Shown: one piece after another, positions 1-6,950 of the stretch | Layout: each line of letters opens with the position of its first letter | Numbering within the stretch: position 1 is the first letter of the stretch | From: Deltaproteobacteria bacterium | Lineage (GTDB): Bacteria; Desulfobacterota; DSM-4660; Desulfatiglandales; HGW-15 | Assembly (NCBI GenBank): GCA_016926135.1 | Contig: JAFGPH010000380.1 | Coordinates: 1-6,950, forward strand | Reading direction: 5' to 3' | Length of the DNA stretch: 6,950 bases | Notes under the pieces: generated by a model | Told to the model about the DNA's origin: nothing | The model's database searches: none | Seen by the model: only the letters and a program-made list of their open reading frames with translations | Translations under genes and position numbers: made by a program

Positions 1-836
1 AGCTTGAAGAGCCTCAGGAAGGGACGGTGTTCCTGGACGGCAACGAGATCACCGATCTGAAGGGGGAGGGGCTGAGGACCTATCGGCGAAAGGTTCAGAT
101 GATCTTTCAGGATCCCTACCAGTCCCTGAATCCGCAGCTTTCCATCTTTGAGAGCGTTGCAGAACCCCTCATCATCCACAGGATAGGTGCGGGCCCGGAA
201 CGCCGGGCGCAGGTCCTGAGCACCCTCAGGGCGGTGGGCCTTTCACCGCCCGAGGACTACATCCAGCGCTATCCGCATCAGCTGAGCGGGGGCCAGAGAC
301 AAAGGGTTGCCATTGCCCGGGCCATGGTCCTCAGGCCCGAAGTGGTAGTGGCCGATGAGCCCACGTCCATGCTGGACGCATCCTATTCGGCGCAGATTTA
401 CAATCTCCTTCTGGAATTGAGGGATCAGTTCCATGTCACCATCCTTTTCATCACCCATAACCTGGCTGCGGCAAAATATCTCTGTGATCGAATCGCCGTG
501 ATTTACAGGGGTACTCTCATGGAAGTCGCCTCCGCGGAGGAGTTGATCCGGCGCCCCAAACATCCCTATACCCAGGCCCTGATTGATGCCCTGCCCAAGT
601 TCGGCCACTGCGAAGGGATCAGGAGATACGACGCTCTTCTGGAGAGCGAGCGGGAGGGTGCGGATGGACCCTGCTGTCCCTTCTTTGTGCGATGTGCAAA
701 GGCCCGGCCGGAAAAATGCGGCAGAGAGGTGCCTCCCCTCCAGGCCTTCGGCTCCGACTCTCAGGTGGCCTGTTTCTACGCGGAGTCCTGGGAAGGGATG
801 GAGACGGAATCCGGGCAATGCTACTTCGGCACCTAG
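1..836 (+). CDS. Oligopeptide/dipeptide ABC transporter ATP-binding protein (OppF/DppF type), 5'-truncated by window edge
   Basis: This is the cytoplasmic ATPase that powers a peptide- or nickel-type importer. The frame is open to the left edge (first full codon at base 3, reading LEEPQEGTV), so the Walker A loop lies outside the window and the GTG at 27 is not a real start. Counting from that GTG, the visible motifs are the Q-loop (MIFQDPYQSLNP, about 25-36), the ABC signature LSGGQ (86-90), Walker B ending in DE (110-111), a D-loop with the slightly unusual MLDAS, and the H-loop His in FITHN (144). The C-terminal oligopeptide-transporter extension follows, with HPYTQAL (179-185) and a cysteine-rich tail (CC at 216-217, Cys 223, 231 and 249) typical of OppF/DppF. 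The permease and OppD-like genes are expected just upstream. The next gene overlaps its end by 19 nt, implying co-transcription. Family is certain; the transported substrate cannot be read from this subunit. Confidence 0.95.
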   Translation, partial: LEEPQEGTVFLDGNEITDLKGEGLRTYRRKVQMIFQDPYQSLNPQLSIFESVAEPLIIHRIGAGPERRAQVLSTLRAVGLSPPEDYIQRYPHQLSGGQRQRVAIARAMVLRPEVVVADEPTSMLDASYSAQIYNLLLELRDQFHVTILFITHNLAAAKYLCDRIAVIYRGTLMEVASAEELIRRPKHPYTQALIDALPKFGHCEGIRRYDALLESEREGADGPCCPFFVRCAKARPEKCGREVPPLQAFGSDSQVACFYAESWEGMETESGQCYFGT

Positions 837-2254
837 AGGATGCGGTTGGCCTGTTCTCTTCCGTGAGGGGCAGCCTGGTGGGCGTGGGGATGACGGCCTA
901 TTCCAGGTTCATCCCCTCCTATCTCTGCCGGCCTTACCATATCGTTGCCCTCCGGAAGACACGAGATCTCCCGGCCCTGAGACGGAGGGCGGAGATATTC
1001 TGTCTTGAAGAGGAAATCGGCCGGTCCGTGAGGGAATCGGATTTCAACTCGACCAGTCTCCTCTCACACCCGCTCACGCAGGGGTACCTGCAGAAGCTCC
1101 CCGATCCGAAATACCTGCTCCTGTATCAGAGCTACCCCGAGCTGGAGGACCTGGCAGGACGAGAAGGATGGAACCTTCTTGCCAATCCCGCCCGCATGCG
1201 GTTGGAGGTGGGAGAACGAGGGTTCTTCCGTGCCCTGATCGAAGAGCTTTGCCTGAACCGGATACCGGGAGACATGGTGCCCATAGGCGAGATGTGGTCC
1301 AGGGGATACCGCCACTGGGCCGGCAAGCTGGGGACCAAGCTCGCGATCCAGTTGCCCGAGGTCCGGCAGGGCGGCGGAAAGGGGACCTTCTTCATCTCGT
1401 CGGAACCGGGGTTCCGAGCGCTCCGGGAACGTCTGGGAAGGGGGATCTGGCGGGGTTCGAGGCTGGAGACGGCATCCATCCGGACCTTCATCGAAGGCAC
1501 ACCGGCGAGCCTGGCCCTTTGCGTTACAAAGAGGGGAATCCTTGTTTCAGGACTCCAGAGACAACTCATCGACCTGTCCTACACCTGGGGCTTACCGGAA
1601 AATGGGGTTTTCTGCGGCCATTCCTGGGGGGAGCCTTCATGGCCTCTCGCCGTCAGCGAGGAGGCGCTCTCCCAGGCCTCGACCATAGGCGGGTTTTTGA
1701 TGCGAAGGGGCTACCGGGGAATCCTCGGAATCGATCTGATCATTGACAGGGTGGACGGCCGGGTGTATCCGGTGGAACTCAACCCCAGGTTCACCGGTGC
1801 CTTCCCCATGCTCTCCCAGTTACACATGCAAAGGGGGCTGATCCCCTTGGATGCCTTTCACATCATGGAGTTCATGGGTCTCTCCCATGAGACGGAAATC
1901 CTTGCGCTGAATGCAGGATACAGGGAACCCGTGAGAGGGGGCCATCTCATCCTGTTTCTCATGGCGGGAGGGAAGAGTGCCAGAGTGCCCGGCCTGCGGG
2001 GAGGTCTTTATGAGTCGGCAGCTGAAGGCGGAAACGCGCGCTATCTGGGAGAAGCCGTGGACTATGACGAAATCCGTAACGAAAGGCAGTTTATCATCAC
2101 AGACGGCCCGCCGGATGGGGAGGTGGGCTCGGACGACCCCCTCTACAGGCTGTGCCGACTTCTTTTTGCCTGTCCGCTGACGGAACCGGACGGCGGGGTC
2201 TCGGGAAGCGCCCTTCGGACTGCCGAGTGGGTCCATCGCATGATCCTGGAGTGA
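818..2254 (+). CDS. ATP-grasp domain protein, substrate unknown (probable carboxylate-amine ligase)
   Basis: A 478-residue protein with the layout of an ATP-grasp ligase. Such enzymes activate a carboxylate as an acyl phosphate and join it to an amine or similar nucleophile. An N-terminal Rossmann-like pre-domain begins at GSLVGVG (about 18-24). A family-like stretch NLLANPARMR...FFRALIEELCLNRIP follows (119-150). Then come the ATP-binding Lys in TKLAIQLP (174), a glycine-rich loop GGGKGT (185-190), the strand IRTFIEGT, and the metal-binding pair Asp in GILGID (301-306) and Glu/Asn in VELNPR (319-324). The last 110 or so residues are not recognised. The ATG at 818 is chosen because an upstream ATG at 692 adds only an Arg/Gly-rich stretch lying inside the ABC gene, while the ATG at 890 would cut into the first beta strand. 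The gene is sandwiched between a peptide-type ABC ATPase (19-nt overlap) and an amidohydrolase (4-nt gap). A role in making or recycling an amide-linked small molecule is therefore plausible but inferred. Confidence 0.85.
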   Translation: MLLRHLEDAVGLFSSVRGSLVGVGMTAYSRFIPSYLCRPYHIVALRKTRDLPALRRRAEIFCLEEEIGRSVRESDFNSTSLLSHPLTQGYLQKLPDPKYLLLYQSYPELEDLAGREGWNLLANPARMRLEVGERGFFRALIEELCLNRIPGDMVPIGEMWSRGYRHWAGKLGTKLAIQLPEVRQGGGKGTFFISSEPGFRALRERLGRGIWRGSRLETASIRTFIEGTPASLALCVTKRGILVSGLQRQLIDLSYTWGLPENGVFCGHSWGEPSWPLAVSEEALSQASTIGGFLMRRGYRGILGIDLIIDRVDGRVYPVELNPRFTGAFPMLSQLHMQRGLIPLDAFHIMEFMGLSHETEILALNAGYREPVRGGHLILFLMAGGKSARVPGLRGGLYESAAEGGNARYLGEAVDYDEIRNERQFIITDGPPDGEVGSDDPLYRLCRLLFACPLTEPDGGVSGSALRTAEWVHRMILE

Positions 2255-2258
2255 ACAC

Positions 2259-3053
2259 ATGGCGCCGGAGAGGACGGAACTGATGTACCCCTTTGTGATT
2301 TCCTTGCCGCACTGCTCCAGCCGGGTTCCGCCGGATATCCGGAGGTCTCTGGCTCTCTCCGACGAAGAGATCGAGGAGTCAACGGACGTGGGAACAGCGG
2401 AGATCTTCGGGGCGGCTCCGGCGATGAAGGTGCTCTGTGCCGAATGGAGCAGGCTGACGGTGGACCTGAACCGGGACCCGGCCCAGAGAGACCAGAAGGG
2501 GGTTGTGGCCTTCATCGACTATGAGGGTCGAAACATCTACCACAAAGCTGGCGCGCCGGATCAGGAGGAGGTGGAGCGACGGATCCTTGCCTACTATCGA
2601 CCTTACCATGATCGGTTGAGGGCGGCCCTGAGGAAACCGGGGGTGGTCGGCCTGATCGACTGCCACTCTCTCTACGGGATCGGCCCCCCTGAAGCGCCCG
2701 ATCCGGGAGAGAAGAGAAAGGACCTGGTGCTCAGCAACAACGGCGATCACCGAGGATGCGACCATCCCACCCGTGGGCGGGCAACGTGCCCTTCCGGTCT
2801 GCTGACGGTGATGAAGCGGATATTCGAGGAGCAGGGATTCTCGGTATCCATCAACCGGCCCTATGCGGGGGGTTTCATTACGACCCATTACGGTCGTGAA
2901 CTGGTGGGCGTGGGGAAAATGGCCGTCCAGATCGAAATCAACCAGGATCTTTACTGTGAACCCGGGAGCCTGCGGTTGGCTTCGGAGAAAGTCAGGGCCG
3001 TGAGGCAACGCGTCCTGGCGGCGTTTTCGGAGATGGAGAAAAGAATGCCATGA
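2259..3053 (+). CDS. N-formylglutamate amidohydrolase family protein
   Basis: A 264-residue member of the N-formylglutamate amidohydrolase family, metal-dependent hydrolases that cleave N-formyl-L-glutamate and related N-acyl amino acids. Visible family motifs are PHCSSRVP (17-24), DVGTAEIF (43-50), DLNR (69-72), DCHS (134-137), NRPYAGGF (199-206) with a nearby His 210, and QIEINQDLY (224-232). The Asp/His/Glu residues in these blocks are the likely metal ligands. No signal peptide is seen, so it should act in the cytoplasm. The ATG at 2259 lies 4 nt after the ATP-grasp stop, with GGAG at the end of that gene serving as a ribosome site. The ATG at 2283 (MYPFVISLPH) follows GAGAGG and is a fair alternative that loses 8 non-conserved residues. 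No histidine-degradation genes are present nearby, so formylglutamate itself may not be the substrate. The pairing with an ATP-grasp protein suggests hydrolysis of a product or intermediate of that enzyme. Confidence 0.92.
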   Translation: MAPERTELMYPFVISLPHCSSRVPPDIRRSLALSDEEIEESTDVGTAEIFGAAPAMKVLCAEWSRLTVDLNRDPAQRDQKGVVAFIDYEGRNIYHKAGAPDQEEVERRILAYYRPYHDRLRAALRKPGVVGLIDCHSLYGIGPPEAPDPGEKRKDLVLSNNGDHRGCDHPTRGRATCPSGLLTVMKRIFEEQGFSVSINRPYAGGFITTHYGRELVGVGKMAVQIEINQDLYCEPGSLRLASEKVRAVRQRVLAAFSEMEKRMP

Positions 3054-3078
3054 CCGGAAAAGCATGACGGAAGGGCCG

Positions 3079-3411
3079 TTATTTCTTTTCCTTGCCCACC
3101 ACGAGCCCGTTCCTGAAATTGACCGTGTACCCCTCAGGATAGTAGTAGTGAAAGGTCCAACGGTGCCCCTTGCGTTGCACTTTTTTCATGTCCAGGGGCT
3201 TTCCGAGCAGTGAGAGGACGTCTTTTTCCGTCATTCCGTTTGAGACCTTTTCGAAGCTCTCCTGATGGAAGGGGATGGCCTTGTACTCGGTCATCTCCTC
3301 CAGGGATATGGGTTCCTCCCGGTACTTGAGTTCCTGTGACCACCCTTGGGTGGCGAGGAGGATGCTCAGGACACAAAAAAGGGTCGCCCGTGAAGCTCTC
3401 CTGAAAATCAT
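3079..3411 (-). CDS. Small exported protein with BamE/SmpA-OmlA-like domain
   Basis: A 110-residue protein on the minus strand. Residues 1-25 form a signal peptide: positive RRASR, then a hydrophobic LFCVLSILLA core, with likely signal peptidase I cleavage after GWS at 25. Cys 13 lies in the hydrophobic core without a good lipobox, so a lipoprotein is unlikely. The mature part carries VSNGMTEKDVLSLLGKP (about 56-72), the hallmark of SmpA/OmlA/BamE-like small outer-membrane or periplasmic domains, followed by beta strands (WTFHYYYPEGYTVNFRNGLVVG). I see the fold signature only. It is not necessarily BamE of the outer-membrane assembly complex. The start is placed at the ATG at 3409-3411, because an almost perfect Shine-Dalgarno (AAGGAGGTGA, 3417-3426) sits 5 nt before it. 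The GTG at 3418-3420 lies inside that ribosome site and is unlikely to be used. Its end converges with the amidohydrolase gene, 25 nt away. Confidence 0.82.
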   Translation of the reverse strand: MIFRRASRATLFCVLSILLATQGWSQELKYREEPISLEEMTEYKAIPFHQESFEKVSNGMTEKDVLSLLGKPLDMKKVQRKGHRWTFHYYYPEGYTVNFRNGLVVGKEKK

Positions 3412-3416
3412 TATCT

Positions 3417-3426
3417 TCACCTCCTT
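3417..3426 (-). promoter_or_regulatory. Strong Shine-Dalgarno that decides the start of the BamE-like gene
   Basis: On the minus strand the ten bases AAGGAGGTGA match the anti-Shine-Dalgarno sequence throughout. They end 5 nt before the ATG at 3409-3411. They overlap the alternative GTG (3418-3420), which argues against that codon as the start. Confidence 0.75.
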
Positions 3427-3518: not shown

Positions 3519-4448
3519 CTGCGCAGGTATCGGGACTACAACACCTACTTGAGGGAAATCTTCGGGGAGAGGGTTCAGAAGATCCCGCTGGATGCGGGCT
3601 TCAACTGTCCCAACCGTGACGGGACCCTTTCCTTCACGGGCTGTGTCTTCTGCGACAGGCGGGGATCAGGCACCGGGGCCATGCTCGATCACGGCAGGAC
3701 CATCGGGGAGCAGGTCGTCGAGGGCATCCGGCATGGGGCACAACGTTACGGGGCCAGGAAGTTCATCGCCTACTTCCAGTCCTTCACGAACACATATGGG
3801 GCAGTCCCCCTGCTGAAGGAGATCTATGACAAAGCCCTTGTGCACGAGGGGATCGTCGGCCTCTCCATCGGCACAAGGCCTGATTGCGTGAACCGGGAGG
3901 TCCTCGACCTTCTCGGCTTTTACAGGGAGAGATATCTCGTTTGGATCGAATTGGGTCTTCAGTCGGCCCACGACGCGACCCTTCAGAGGATCAACCGAGG
4001 ACACGACGTGGCGGCCTTTGAAAAGGCCGTCCTGATGGCGGATCGGTCGGGGCTGAATGTGTGCGCCCATGTCATTCTGGGTCTGCCGGGCGAGACGCCC
4101 GGGATGATGCGTCAAACGGCACGCTATGTGGGGGGACTCCCTCTGGAAGGGGTCAAAATCCATCTCCTCTATGTGGTGAGGGACACGCCCCTGGCGAAAT
4201 GGCACCAAGAGGGGATATTCCAGTGCCTTGAGAGAGAGGAGTATGTGGATCTGGTGGTGGATTTCCTGGAAAGGATCCCACCGGCCATGGTGGTTCAGAG
4301 GCTCACGGGGGACCCCTTCGGGGTGGATCTGGTGGCGCCCCTCTGGGCGAAGGAGAAGACCGGAACCCTCCACCGTATCAGGAAAAGGCTGGAAGAGAGG
4401 GACACGTGGCAGGGGAAGAAACACGGATCGTCTATTGCTGGCAGATGA
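3519..4448 (+). CDS. Radical SAM protein of the TIGR01212/YhcC type
   Basis: A radical S-adenosylmethionine protein of 309 residues if begun at CTG 3519, about the size I recall for E. coli YhcC. The iron-sulfur ligands are Cys 30, 42 and 45 in a C-x11-C-x2-C arrangement (CPNRDGT...GCVFC), the wide spacing typical of this family instead of the classical C-x3-C-x2-C. Other family blocks are SIGTRPDC (115-122), WIELGLQS (141-148), HVILGLPGE (183-191), VKIHLLYVVRDTPLA and VVQRLTGD (257-264). The reaction is not firmly known. The start is argued from the ribosome site and because RRYRDYNTYL before the TTG at 3549 looks like the family's usual N-terminus. The frame closes at a TGA at 3510. The next gene begins inside its last 43 nt, and a further in-frame ATG of that gene overlaps this stop as ATGA, so the two are translationally coupled. 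Confidence 0.92.
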   Translation: MRRYRDYNTYLREIFGERVQKIPLDAGFNCPNRDGTLSFTGCVFCDRRGSGTGAMLDHGRTIGEQVVEGIRHGAQRYGARKFIAYFQSFTNTYGAVPLLKEIYDKALVHEGIVGLSIGTRPDCVNREVLDLLGFYRERYLVWIELGLQSAHDATLQRINRGHDVAAFEKAVLMADRSGLNVCAHVILGLPGETPGMMRQTARYVGGLPLEGVKIHLLYVVRDTPLAKWHQEGIFQCLEREEYVDLVVDFLERIPPAMVVQRLTGDPFGVDLVAPLWAKEKTGTLHRIRKRLEERDTWQGKKHGSSIAGR

Positions 4449-4924
4449 GCCTGGAAGGGCTGAGGGTCTGCCTGGCATCGTCCGGAAGGGGTGCGCTCAG
4501 GATCGGTCTCAGTCTGGAGGCAGAGTTTGCCTGCCTGGACTATTTCAGGGACTTGCTGGCGCCGGCGGTGCTACGGATAGATCGGAACATGAACGCATCC
4601 CTGATCGAGGCGGTAGATGCTGCGTGGCACAACCGACCTGTGCGCAGACCCGTTCTCCCGGAGGAACACGGAACCCGCTTCCAGAGGTCGGCATGGGAAG
4701 CGATCGCCCGGATCCCCTTTGGGGCGACCCGGACCTATGGGGAGGTTGCCCGCATGGTCCGAAGACCGCTCGCAGCCAGGGCGATCGGTCAGGCCATGGG
4801 TCGCAACCCTCTTCCCCTCATCTTTCCGTGACACAGGGTGGTGGCCGCCCGGGGTCTAGGCGGCTTCACAGGTGGGCTGGATGTGAAGAAGTTTTTGCTG
4901 AGCCGGGAAGGGGTGAGGTTCTAG
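4406..4924 (+). CDS. ogt: Selenocysteine-containing methylated-DNA--protein-cysteine S-methyltransferase (O6-alkylguanine-DNA alkyltransferase), TGA at 4829-4831 read as Sec
   Basis: A DNA-repair protein that takes the alkyl group from O6-alkylguanine onto its own active-site residue in a single-turnover reaction. Read through the TGA it has 172 residues: an N-terminal beta region (IVYCWQM...LRIGL), then GTRFQRSAWEAIARIPFGATRTYGEVA (89-115) with the base-flipping Tyr 111 and helix-turn-helix, Arg 125 in the DNA-intercalating position (AARAIG), Asn 134 in GRNPLPLIF, then P141-U142-H143-R144-V145, the glycine-rich GLGGFTGG and the terminal LLSRE with Glu 168. All family landmarks are present; only the catalytic Cys codon is TGA. 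The conservation of 30 residues after the TGA and a SECIS-like hairpin directly behind it argue for selenocysteine over a nonsense mutation. GTG 4406 follows GAGAGG by 5 nt and preserves the first strand. ATG 4445, overlapping the radical SAM stop as ATGA, is an alternative (Sec at 129). The TAG stop lies on the edge of a palindromic repeat. Confidence 0.9.
4829..4831 (+). other. Selenocysteine codon (TGA) at the alkyltransferase active site
   Basis: The TGA takes the place of the Cys codon in the invariant P-C-H-R-V motif. Upstream in frame the sequence reads NPLPLIFP; downstream it reads HRVVAARGLGGFTGG. In bacteria, Sec insertion needs tRNA-Sec, SelA, SelD and SelB, none of which is in this window. 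Confidence 0.88.
4838..4869 (+). promoter_or_regulatory. Bacterial SECIS element for the alkyltransferase
   Basis: The hairpin begins 6 nt after the TGA, inside the coding sequence. The lower stem GUG (4838-4840) pairs with CAC (4867-4869), then G4841 with U4866. U4842 is bulged, G4843 pairs with U4865, and GCCGCC (4844-4849) pairs with GGCGGC (4859-4864). The nine-base apical loop (4850-4858) contains GGUCU at 4853-4857. The bulged U and the GGU(CU) loop are the features that SelB recognises in the E. coli fdhF SECIS. The distance from TGA to loop (about 20-25 nt) suits bacterial elements, although the stem between bulge and loop is longer here (7 bp against 3). There is no U-tract after it, so it is not a terminator. 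Confidence 0.85.
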
Positions 4925-5078
4925 CAGGTTGCTGAAAAACACCCATCTGCAGCGTTGCCCTCACCCCTCGTCGCTGCGACGTACTGGCATGTACGCCTCG
5001 CTCCTCGGGATTTCGGGCGCCTTGCATCTGGATGCTTTTCAGCAACCTGCCCAAGGGACTTTTCCAGCAGCCTGCTAG
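4921..5078. repeat. Palindromic intergenic repeat (REP/MITE-like) between convergent genes
   Basis: Bases 4924-5050 form an imperfect 127-nt palindrome. The outer arms GCAGGTTGCTGAAAA (4924-4938) and TTTTCAGCAACCTGC (5036-5050) are exact inverted copies, and the centre is a CGTAC/GTACG stem (4980-4984, 4991-4995) around TGGCAT, exactly at the midpoint. A further near-copy of the right end follows at 5061-5078: it matches the inverse of 4921-4938 at 16 of 18 positions and forms a degenerate direct repeat with 5036-5050. The TAG stop codons of the alkyltransferase gene (4922-4924) and of fabD (5075-5077) both lie in the repeat termini. No transposase frame is inside. It could act as a two-way transcription terminator, or be a mobile element remnant. 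I recall similar sequences from Desulfobacterota intergenic regions, but could not check. Confidence 0.8.
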
Positions 5079-6016
5079 GAAAGGGCGTCGAGAAGGGACT
5101 TCAGACCCTTCATGTCTCCCACATTGAAAAGCGCTACATTACTCTCGCGGGGCAGCGTTTTCTTCAGGAGGCCGATCAGTACGTTTTTGGGACCCACCTC
5201 CACGAAGGCATCCACGCCCTGGTCGAGCATCCTGAGCATGATCTCGTTCCACCTCACGGGCCGGGTCAGTTGCTGGGCCATGACCTCCTTGATCCTCCCG
5301 GGATCGGTTTCGGCCTCTGCCTCGGCGTTGAAGAGCATGGGGACCCGCGGCTCGGAAAAAGAGATTTCCTCCATGAAGTCGCGGAAGTCTTTTACCCCGT
5401 CCCTCATCAGGGGGCTGTGCCAGGCACCGCTCACATTGAGGGGGATCGCCTTGCCGCCCTTCTGCTTGATCAGGTCCATGGCAAGCCTGAGAGATTCTTG
5501 CTGTCCGGTGATGACGATCTGCTGGGCCGTGTTGTAGTTGGCAATGCCGATGACACCCTCCTCTGCCGCGAGGCGGACGACCTCCTCCACCTCCTCCTTG
5601 CGAAGACCCATGACTGCCGCCATGGAGCCGGGATTCAGGATGGCTTCCCTGTGCATGAGTTCGCCCCTCTTCTTGGCGAGAAGGAGGGCGTCTCGTTCCG
5701 AGAGGACCCCTGCCGAGACGAGGGCGGCACACTCTCCTACGCTGTGTCCCGCACAAACGGTGGGTCGGACCTGAGATCGGTTCAGGGCCCTCAGACAGGC
5801 CAGGTTCACCGCTGTGACGGCCGGTTGGAGATTCACCGTCAGGGTCAACTCCTCCATAGGGCCTTGGAAGCAAAGCCTGGACAGGGGCTTCAGGCAAATC
5901 TCATCCAGCAGGTCGAAGAGTTCACGCGCCTGCTCCATTTGGAGGGCCAGGTCGAGACCCATTCCGACCACCTGAGACCCTTGACCGGGAAAAAGAAAGG
6001 CGATTCTCTCAGCCAT
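5075..6016 (-). CDS. fabD: Malonyl-CoA:acyl carrier protein transacylase
   Basis: A 313-residue FabD, which moves the malonyl group from CoA to acyl carrier protein to supply fatty acid synthesis in the cytoplasm. The N-terminal FLFPGQGSQ (7-15) supplies the oxyanion-hole Gln 11. The nucleophile is Ser 92 in GHSVGE, Arg 117 (KKRGELM) binds the malonyl carboxylate, and His 200 in GAWHSPLM completes the catalytic dyad. The block EVGPKNVL near the C-terminus is also family-typical. Length is normal and no key residue is missing. The start at 6016 is supported by GGAGGAGA ending about 7 nt upstream. It is the last gene of a minus-strand unit, 19 nt after the preceding gene. Its TAG stop is supplied by the palindromic repeat end. 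The other fatty acid synthesis genes (fabH, fabG, acpP) are not beside it on the downstream side. Confidence 0.97.
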   Translation of the reverse strand: MAERIAFLFPGQGSQVVGMGLDLALQMEQARELFDLLDEICLKPLSRLCFQGPMEELTLTVNLQPAVTAVNLACLRALNRSQVRPTVCAGHSVGECAALVSAGVLSERDALLLAKKRGELMHREAILNPGSMAAVMGLRKEEVEEVVRLAAEEGVIGIANYNTAQQIVITGQQESLRLAMDLIKQKGGKAIPLNVSGAWHSPLMRDGVKDFRDFMEEISFSEPRVPMLFNAEAEAETDPGRIKEVMAQQLTRPVRWNEIMLRMLDQGVDAFVEVGPKNVLIGLLKKTLPRESNVALFNVGDMKGLKSLLDALS

Positions 6017-6035: not shown

Positions 6036-6581
6036 CTACTTCTGGGGTTCTCCCATCTTCCTGTAGAAGAGCTGCTCCATGGCGATGTCATATTCCCGGG
6101 AACCGGGCACCAGGGACTTGGTGCGGGAGAGTTGCTGCAGGATTTCATCCTCTGCTCTGGTGAATTCCGTGTTAATCCGGTTGATCACACCATTGACGAT
6201 CTGGTAGATCTCCAGGTCCGTGCCGTAGACATCAATCACACAGGGGTCATTGATGACGACCTCCAGGATATACTGGGTCATGTAAAGGGAGATGGGATTG
6301 GGGCGGGGCAAAAGATCCCGGAGGGGGGCTACGAAATACTTGAACTCAAACTCGTTCAACCTTTGGAATTTCTTCAGTCCCTTCAGAAGGAGTTCGGACA
6401 GGGCCGCAGGAGAGTCCGTTTCGATGACCTTTTCCATCAGGAGGGCCTGATGCAAACGGCTGTTCATCGCGGACAGTTTGAACTTGAAAAACCTGTCTCG
6501 CTGGAAGAGCTCCCGTTTTTCCTTCCTTTCAAGTCTGTCAAGAAGTTTGTCTTGAACCTTCCCGCTGTCGAATCTCTTCAT
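6036..6581 (-). CDS. Conserved-looking protein of unknown function
   Basis: A 181-residue protein that I do not recognise. The first 30 residues are highly charged (MKRFDSGKVQDKLLDRLERKEKRELF) and probably helical. The middle (60-90) is mostly amphipathic helix (LLLKGLKKFQRLNEFEFKYFVAPLRDLL). A compact segment follows with PNPISLYMTQYILEVVINDPCVIDVYGTD (about 94-122), and the end reads VPGSREYDIAMEQLFYRKMG. There is no signal peptide, membrane segment or metal motif, so it should be cytoplasmic. Normal codon use, lack of low complexity, and a position between a zinc-ribbon gene and fabD with only 19 nt to fabD support a real gene. A weak AGGG lies 6 nt before the ATG. The function could relate to the neighbours only by association. 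Confidence 0.82.
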   Translation of the reverse strand: MKRFDSGKVQDKLLDRLERKEKRELFQRDRFFKFKLSAMNSRLHQALLMEKVIETDSPAALSELLLKGLKKFQRLNEFEFKYFVAPLRDLLPRPNPISLYMTQYILEVVINDPCVIDVYGTDLEIYQIVNGVINRINTEFTRAEDEILQQLSRTKSLVPGSREYDIAMEQLFYRKMGEPQK

Positions 6582-6659
6582 GGTTGACCCTACCGGCTCC
6601 TTTTCGGGACAACGTGAACTCGGAGGAGTCCGGCGCCTTTGGCAACAAGACCCTGCCGA
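6582..6659 (-). other. Short spacer between the zinc-ribbon gene and the unknown gene
   Basis: Seventy-eight bases with no reading frame of note. I see no convincing promoter or terminator in it, so read-through from the zinc-ribbon gene into the unknown gene and fabD is the simplest view. Confidence 0.4.
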
Positions 6660-6950
6660 TCAGGCCTCGTTCTTGTTGCTGGAGCTTGTCGAATGGTTTG
6701 AACTCGGAGTTGAATCGGTCGACTTTGCCTCCTTGGCCGGGGACTCCTTCTCTTTCTTCTTCGTGGCCTCCCTCGTCCCGCTCTTGGATGCATAGTCCGT
6801 CACATACCAGCCCGTACCCTTTAAATGAAAGGCGCTCTGAGAAATCAGCTTTCTCAGTTTCCCGTTGCAGATCTCGCATCTCGACAGCGGCGAGTCGGAA
6901 AATTTCTGCCAGACCTCCGTCTGGTGACCGCACTTCTTGCATTCATACTC
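6660..6950 (-). CDS. FmdB-family zinc-ribbon protein, 5' end cut by window edge
   Basis: The minus-strand frame is open from the right edge to a TGA at 6660-6662, giving 96 visible residues; by family comparison only the first three or four (M-P-x-Y-like) are missing. The visible part starts EYECKKCGHQTEVWQKF and carries two CxxC knuckles (Cys 4/7 and 25/28 of the visible chain) that bind one zinc. It continues with the FmdB-family block LRKLISQSAFHLKGTGWYVTDYA. Residues 55-96 are a Lys/Ser/Thr/Asn-rich, probably disordered tail. FmdB-type proteins were named as regulators of formamidase and amidase genes, but most are small putative regulators without a proven job. It is the first visible gene of the minus-strand unit; 78 nt separate it from the next gene. 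A different, longer frame over the same bases is only a shadow. Confidence 0.9.
   Translation of the reverse strand, partial: EYECKKCGHQTEVWQKFSDSPLSRCEICNGKLRKLISQSAFHLKGTGWYVTDYASKSGTREATKKKEKESPAKEAKSTDSTPSSNHSTSSSNKNEA

Follow-up and report, generated by a model that had tools for sequence, protein, structure and literature searches.

A conserved in-frame UGA at the catalytic position of a deltaproteobacterial alkylguanine-DNA alkyltransferase likely specifies selenocysteine

An alkylguanine-DNA alkyltransferase gene on a 6,950-nucleotide stretch of a deltaproteobacterial contig (the window) carries a TGA exactly where the family has its catalytic cysteine. This UGA is very likely decoded as selenocysteine (Sec) by SelB and tRNA-Sec with the help of a hairpin behind it (Table 1), in which case the protein would alkylate its own selenium. 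The first-pass annotation had proposed Sec in place of the catalytic cysteine, and this interpretation is supported by the conservation of the UGA, by a SECIS-type hairpin, and by Sec machinery in related genomes; Sec insertion in the window's organism is a prediction from sequence.

Table 1. Features of the window (coordinates are window positions).
Feature	Coordinates	Strand	Details and basis
Alkylguanine-DNA alkyltransferase gene	4406–4924	+	GTG start, one in-frame TGA, TAG end; 172 residues with the TGA read
TGA in place of the catalytic Cys codon (residue 142), predicted to encode selenocysteine	4829–4831	+	Translation
Predicted SECIS hairpin, 6-bp stem GCCGCC/GGCGGC	4844–4864	+	Stem conserved in TGA genes
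Apical loop CGGGGTCTA, G second, 18 nt after the TGA	4850–4858	+	Sequence compared with the bacterial SECIS model
tRNA-modification radical SAM gene MnmL/YtqA, overlapping the alkyltransferase start	3549–4448	+	TIGR01212, E 1.4e-101; synteny
fabD	5075–6016	-	Stays beside the alkyltransferase locus in several relatives
Ordinary neighbors: oligopeptide ABC transporter ATPase, ATP-grasp protein, N-formylglutamate amidohydrolase, weak BamE-like protein, DUF507 protein, zinc-ribbon protein	1–3420 and 6036–6950		

In the standard reading, the alkyltransferase frame is an open reading frame of 141 amino acids that ends at the TGA. With TGA translated as U, the frame contains this single U, within the sequence IFP-U-HRVV-AARGLGGFTGG, and continues for 30 residues to the TAG. 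The active-site motif reads P-U-H-R, which retains the family's P-C-H-R except for UGA in place of the Cys codon. The PF01035 model matches residues 92–170 of the read-through protein, across the TGA (E 4.5e-30; 103.8 bits, cut-off 27), and TIGR00589 matches it as well (E 1.9e-28; 98.3 bits, cut-off 46.4). The translation and the PF01035 match confirm what had initially been read from the DNA, namely a lone in-frame TGA at the catalytic Cys codon of P-C-H-R followed by 30 family-matching residues before a TAG. The asparagine located eight residues before the catalytic residue, equivalent to Asn137 of human AGT, is present in all 32 TGA rows and all 13 Cys rows of the alignment. Residues 1–70 are outside the best-matching stretch in all 47 sequence matches, except for matches starting at residue 69 or 67.

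A structure was predicted with cysteine placed at the UGA site and an alignment of 38 rows (mean pLDDT 84.9). Among solved structures searched with Foldseek, the predicted fold resembles M. tuberculosis Ogt (4wxd), the C-domain of E. coli Ada (1sfe), and human AGT (1eh6), sharing a common fold with them (Foldseek probability 1.00, query TM 0.65–0.74). The P-C-H-R context aligns in each case, with cysteine in the known proteins and UGA in the window. Alkyltransferase-like proteins (ATLs) have tryptophan or alanine at the catalytic Cys position. This identity was rejected for the window gene, as its codon is TGA and relatives with a sense codon have TGC or TGT.

The UGA is widely shared by relatives, as the first-pass annotation had suggested checking. 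A protein search yielded 2458 homologues above threshold; among the 120 listed, 64 have their last residue immediately ahead of the catalytic Cys (including the window's own product, P0002) and 56 read P-C-H-R. A scan of one genome per species gave TGA at 7, TGC at 56, and TGT at 17 of the best 80 of at least 568 loci. We then considered the related class, consisting of 85 genomes (among them L004, a Desulfobacteraceae MAG, and L006, delta proteobacterium NaphS2). The window protein has 46 matches in these genomes with E no higher than 1e-25; a single TGA is present in 30 of them and no stop in 16. The PF01035 model identifies 84 places in 71 of the 85 genomes, of which 38 contain one stop, one per genome and TGA in every case; TAA and TAG occur within none of the 84. 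The catalytic codon was read in 53 genes (the window plus 52 loci) and is TGA in 40, TGC in 12, and TGT in one. All 40 TGA genes, which include the 38 class places, have the TGA exactly at the catalytic codon and an open frame behind it. Chance is excluded by this sharing of TGA at the same codon. Across the phylum, a search matched at least 356 of 395 genomes among the matches listed, which comprise the stronger ones and do not bear on TGA outside the class. Irregular TGA genes were also seen: a deletion after the UGA in L122 has taken out six residues together with the hairpin, L123 reads P-U-P-R, and L125 has one additional residue, extends 113 residues beyond the UGA, and folds strongly (-33.0).

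The hairpin behind the UGA is conserved along with it. Numbering the U of UGA as nucleotide 1, the stem pairs nucleotides 16–21 with 31–36; counts are for 32 ungapped TGA genes and 13 Cys genes, with L122 and L125 left out because of their indels. All 32 TGA genes form five or six of the six pairs, compared with a mean of 3.78 (sd 0.17) upon synonymous reshuffling, and none of 500 reshuffles was as high as observed. The Cys genes form 4.46 pairs versus 3.82 when reshuffled (4 of 500 as high), and thus also lie above their own reshuffles. Considered as a seven-pair stem, 91.1% of cells are paired in TGA genes versus 64.8% in Cys genes, and covariation in the TGA genes exceeds that of all 500 shuffles. 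The consensus fold has an energy of -11.51 kcal/mol for TGA genes versus -1.3 kcal/mol for Cys genes. A published bacterial SECIS model calls for a loop of 3–9 nt with G in its first two positions, a stem of 4–16 bp, a spacing of 16–37 nt, and a minimum free energy of -7.5 kcal/mol or lower (PMC13188914). By reading, the window hairpin (9-nt loop, 6 bp, G second, 18 nt spacing) is within this model. The energy limit, the only one scored over all rows, is reached over nucleotides 14–38 by every one of the 32 ungapped TGA genes and by a single Cys gene out of 13. The first-pass annotation had raised the contrary case of an isolated nonsense mutation with Cys relatives lacking a hairpin; this case fails, in that TGA and hairpin are conserved together in relatives.

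Folding of the window sequence depends on how much of it is included. When nucleotides 1–54 fold freely, a nearer stem is preferred and the conserved stem has a probability of 0.04; without nucleotides 1–12, which would be covered by a ribosome stopped at the UGA, this rises to 0.92. Over nucleotides 13–54, 25 of 32 TGA genes and 1 of 13 Cys genes form the conserved stem with a probability above 0.5. Simple single-sequence folding z-scores were near zero and uninformative, and an Rfam search of the window gave no match. Like the SECIS of E. coli fdhF, the window hairpin is close behind the UGA and has GGTCT in its loop (nucleotides 25–29 in the window, 22–26 in fdhF, NC_000913), but the stem sequences are unrelated. 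GGTC occurs in the loop region of only 9 of the 32 TGA genes, and the highest of 500 reshuffles equals 9. A scan for residues separating Sec from Cys forms (leaving out L140–L146, L122, and P0118) found no clear active-site signature. The only distinguishing residue close to the site is 149 (U+7), which lies inside the hairpin and is glycine in 20 of 32 TGA rows and asparagine or aspartate in 10 of 13 Cys rows. This mark is a tendency only, since the 56 Cys homologues from the protein search are also often glycine here (16, versus 14 with asparagine or aspartate).

Both tRNA-Sec and SelB were found in 66 of the 85 class genomes each. The 38 genomes with a TGA gene have tRNA-Sec in 32 cases, SelB in 34, both in 29, and at least one in 37; G002 has the TGA gene, and neither SelB nor tRNA-Sec was found in it. 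The machinery does not provide a discriminating test, because most class genomes without a TGA gene carry SelB or tRNA-Sec too (44 of 47, Fisher p 0.62). The anticodon is TCA in five of five tRNA-Sec loci checked. A weaker tRNA-Sec match (53–60 bits) was observed in 11 of the 85 genomes. It is located less than 400 nt from a SelB match in G055, G056, G058, G059, G064, G067, G081, and G082, and at ~1.4 kb in G027 and ~4 kb in G034. This arrangement resembles an additional, linked selC-selB pair, in many cases alongside the usual tRNA-Sec.

These data bear on other explanations of the UGA. Were the TGA a nonsense mutation or a sequencing error, the gene would be a pseudogene with a 141-amino acid product devoid of an active site. 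Gene callers do terminate the protein at the TGA, homologue entries are likewise truncated, and some relatives appear damaged (L122 and L123). Conservation of the TGA across relatives leads us to reject this explanation: the same codon is TGA in 40 genes, TAA or TAG never takes its place among the 38 class places, substitutions behind the UGA fall mostly at third codon positions (13.45 per pair versus 6.71 and 3.38), and the hairpin is conserved. We regard a pseudogene as extremely unlikely. Nor is TGA a universal sense codon, as it terminates the window's open reading frames at 692–2254, 2259–3053, and 3549–4448; with neighboring frames ending in TGA, the codon is not simply a sense codon in the window.

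The UGA could instead be read as another amino acid, for example cysteine by a tRNA-Cys with anticodon UCA, yielding an ordinary Cys alkyltransferase. Such tRNAs exist, and cysteine is the family's residue at the catalytic site. The five tRNA-Sec loci checked all bear anticodon TCA, SelB occurs in 34 of the 38 TGA genomes, a SECIS-type hairpin is present, and neighboring genes in the window terminate with TGA, all of which makes this reading very improbable. A further idea is that regulation is the main point, with selenium supply determining whether a full-length Sec enzyme or the 141-amino acid product is made. Both products are in principle possible from a UGA, and in 31 of the 38 TGA genomes no further PF01035 place was found at E 1e-8 (genome completeness not given), so that repair would follow selenium supply in them. 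However, there is no hint of a function for the short form, from which the nucleophile and the final helix are missing, and the other seven genomes have a second, stop-free place. A switch of this kind as the gene's chief purpose is hardly credible.

TGA at the catalytic codon occurs in three subfamilies. Most of the 40 TGA genes (34) are of the window type, two are Ogt-like (L130 and L131), and four consist of a short C-domain only (L134–L137). Among 120 listed homologues of the Ogt-like type, 110 break off just ahead of the UGA (one being identical to the L130 product), nine have Cys, and one is unclear; a strict search for this type found none in 148 phylum genomes (no positive control). 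For the short type, in which truncated forms fall below the length needed to enter the listing, 120 listed homologues comprise 94 with Cys, 21 with Trp, and five without a match. The 21 read P-W-H-R at the catalytic site, and one of them (P0247) is 90% identical to a TGA gene product; these are either true ATL-like proteins or cases of TGA rendered as Trp by a gene caller. A hairpin with a GGTC-type loop follows the UGA in the four short-type and two Ogt-like loci, which are few genes and provide a lead only. A quick tree built from 118 rows places both Sec and Cys rows within the short type (support 100) and within the Ogt-like type (support 99), and grouping all 40 Sec rows into a single clade is rejected (p 5.5e-5). 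Like the 38-row alignment, the tree used a hand-picked part of the listed homologues; P0134 was left out of it. The tree requires a minimum of 17 changes; given its 97 columns and the 49 of 111 branches left open, however, the safe statement is "at least three". As two further subfamilies carry TGA at the catalytic codon, the switch there likely happened at least three times.

The genomic context of the gene also connects Sec and Cys forms. The alkyltransferase GTG start is inside the 3' end of the upstream gene MnmL/YtqA, whose own true start may be further upstream. MnmL/YtqA precedes the alkyltransferase gene on the same strand in 32 of the 34 TGA loci of the window's subfamily (window counted), the remaining two having less than 300 nt of upstream sequence. 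It is likewise upstream in 6 of 13 Cys loci (L101, L106, L117, L126, L138, and L139), with the other seven located elsewhere. Because MnmL/YtqA adjoins both kinds, Sec and Cys are found at the same orthologous position in different genomes, and they appear to have replaced each other there repeatedly. The one Cys gene below the -7.5 kcal/mol limit, L117 of NaphS2 (-15.2), groups with TGA gene L120 in the tree. This gene appears to have reverted from Sec to Cys while keeping a remnant hairpin; reversion with a remnant signal has been described in other families (PMC1794560). Downstream, an inverted repeat (4924–5050) with 28-nt arms, 86% complementary and 71 nt apart, starts on the final base of the alkyltransferase gene's TAG and is perhaps a small mobile or REP-like element.

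Sec alkyltransferases as a kind have been predicted before, and the window gene adds a new member. The first-pass annotation's guess that computational surveys may list the family proved correct: "methylated-DNA-protein-cysteine methyltransferase" (PF01035/COG0350) appears among the predicted selenoproteins of a 2008 GOS survey and of two reviews, with one GOS sequence listed and ABB14497.1 given as the example in the reviews (PMC2398784, PMC9312934, PMC13188914). These belong to the same family and have Sec predicted from UGA; they may be of the window's subfamily, the Ogt-like one, or the short one. The 2026 review of the two cites Zhang and Gladyshev 2007 (Olavius algarvensis) for the alkyltransferase as a selenoprotein, and the main texts of PMC1914089, PMC12013277, and PMC8318568 do not mention the family under the named terms. 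No test of a natural Sec alkyltransferase was found in the open-licence literature, outside of which most subscription papers lie. Human AGT engineered with Sec145 protects E. coli from MNNG (PMC4150793). It has Sec at the same catalytic position as predicted here, but is artificial, UAG-directed, and without a SECIS. Asn137 becomes dispensable in this engineered protein, whereas the asparagine, which assists in generating the thiolate, is retained in every TGA row here. A selenolate should not need it, and its retention may reflect pocket geometry or fitness for Sec/Cys exchange.

In the proposed mechanism, SelB and tRNA-Sec would decode the UGA as Sec, aided by the hairpin at 4844–4864. The selenolate would attack O6-alkylguanine in DNA, and the alkyl group would move to the protein's selenium, leaving, by analogy with the family, Se-alkyl-selenocysteine as the protein's end state. 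A selenolate is both a better leaving group and a better nucleophile. On this basis, selenium may have been recruited independently into the three subfamilies for a multi-turnover enzyme that passes the alkyl group to a second acceptor rather than for a suicide protein, a proposal we consider improbable.

Most selenoproteins use selenium catalytically and recover it. By the family mechanism, single-turnover suicide repair in the Sec alkyltransferases would spend one selenium atom per repaired lesion, unless the adduct is reversible; yet 38 of the 85 class genomes have retained the trait. Many of the TGA genes sit in protein collections as truncated products without an active site. The natural Cys orthologues at the same locus are a ready control for why cells would pay for Sec.
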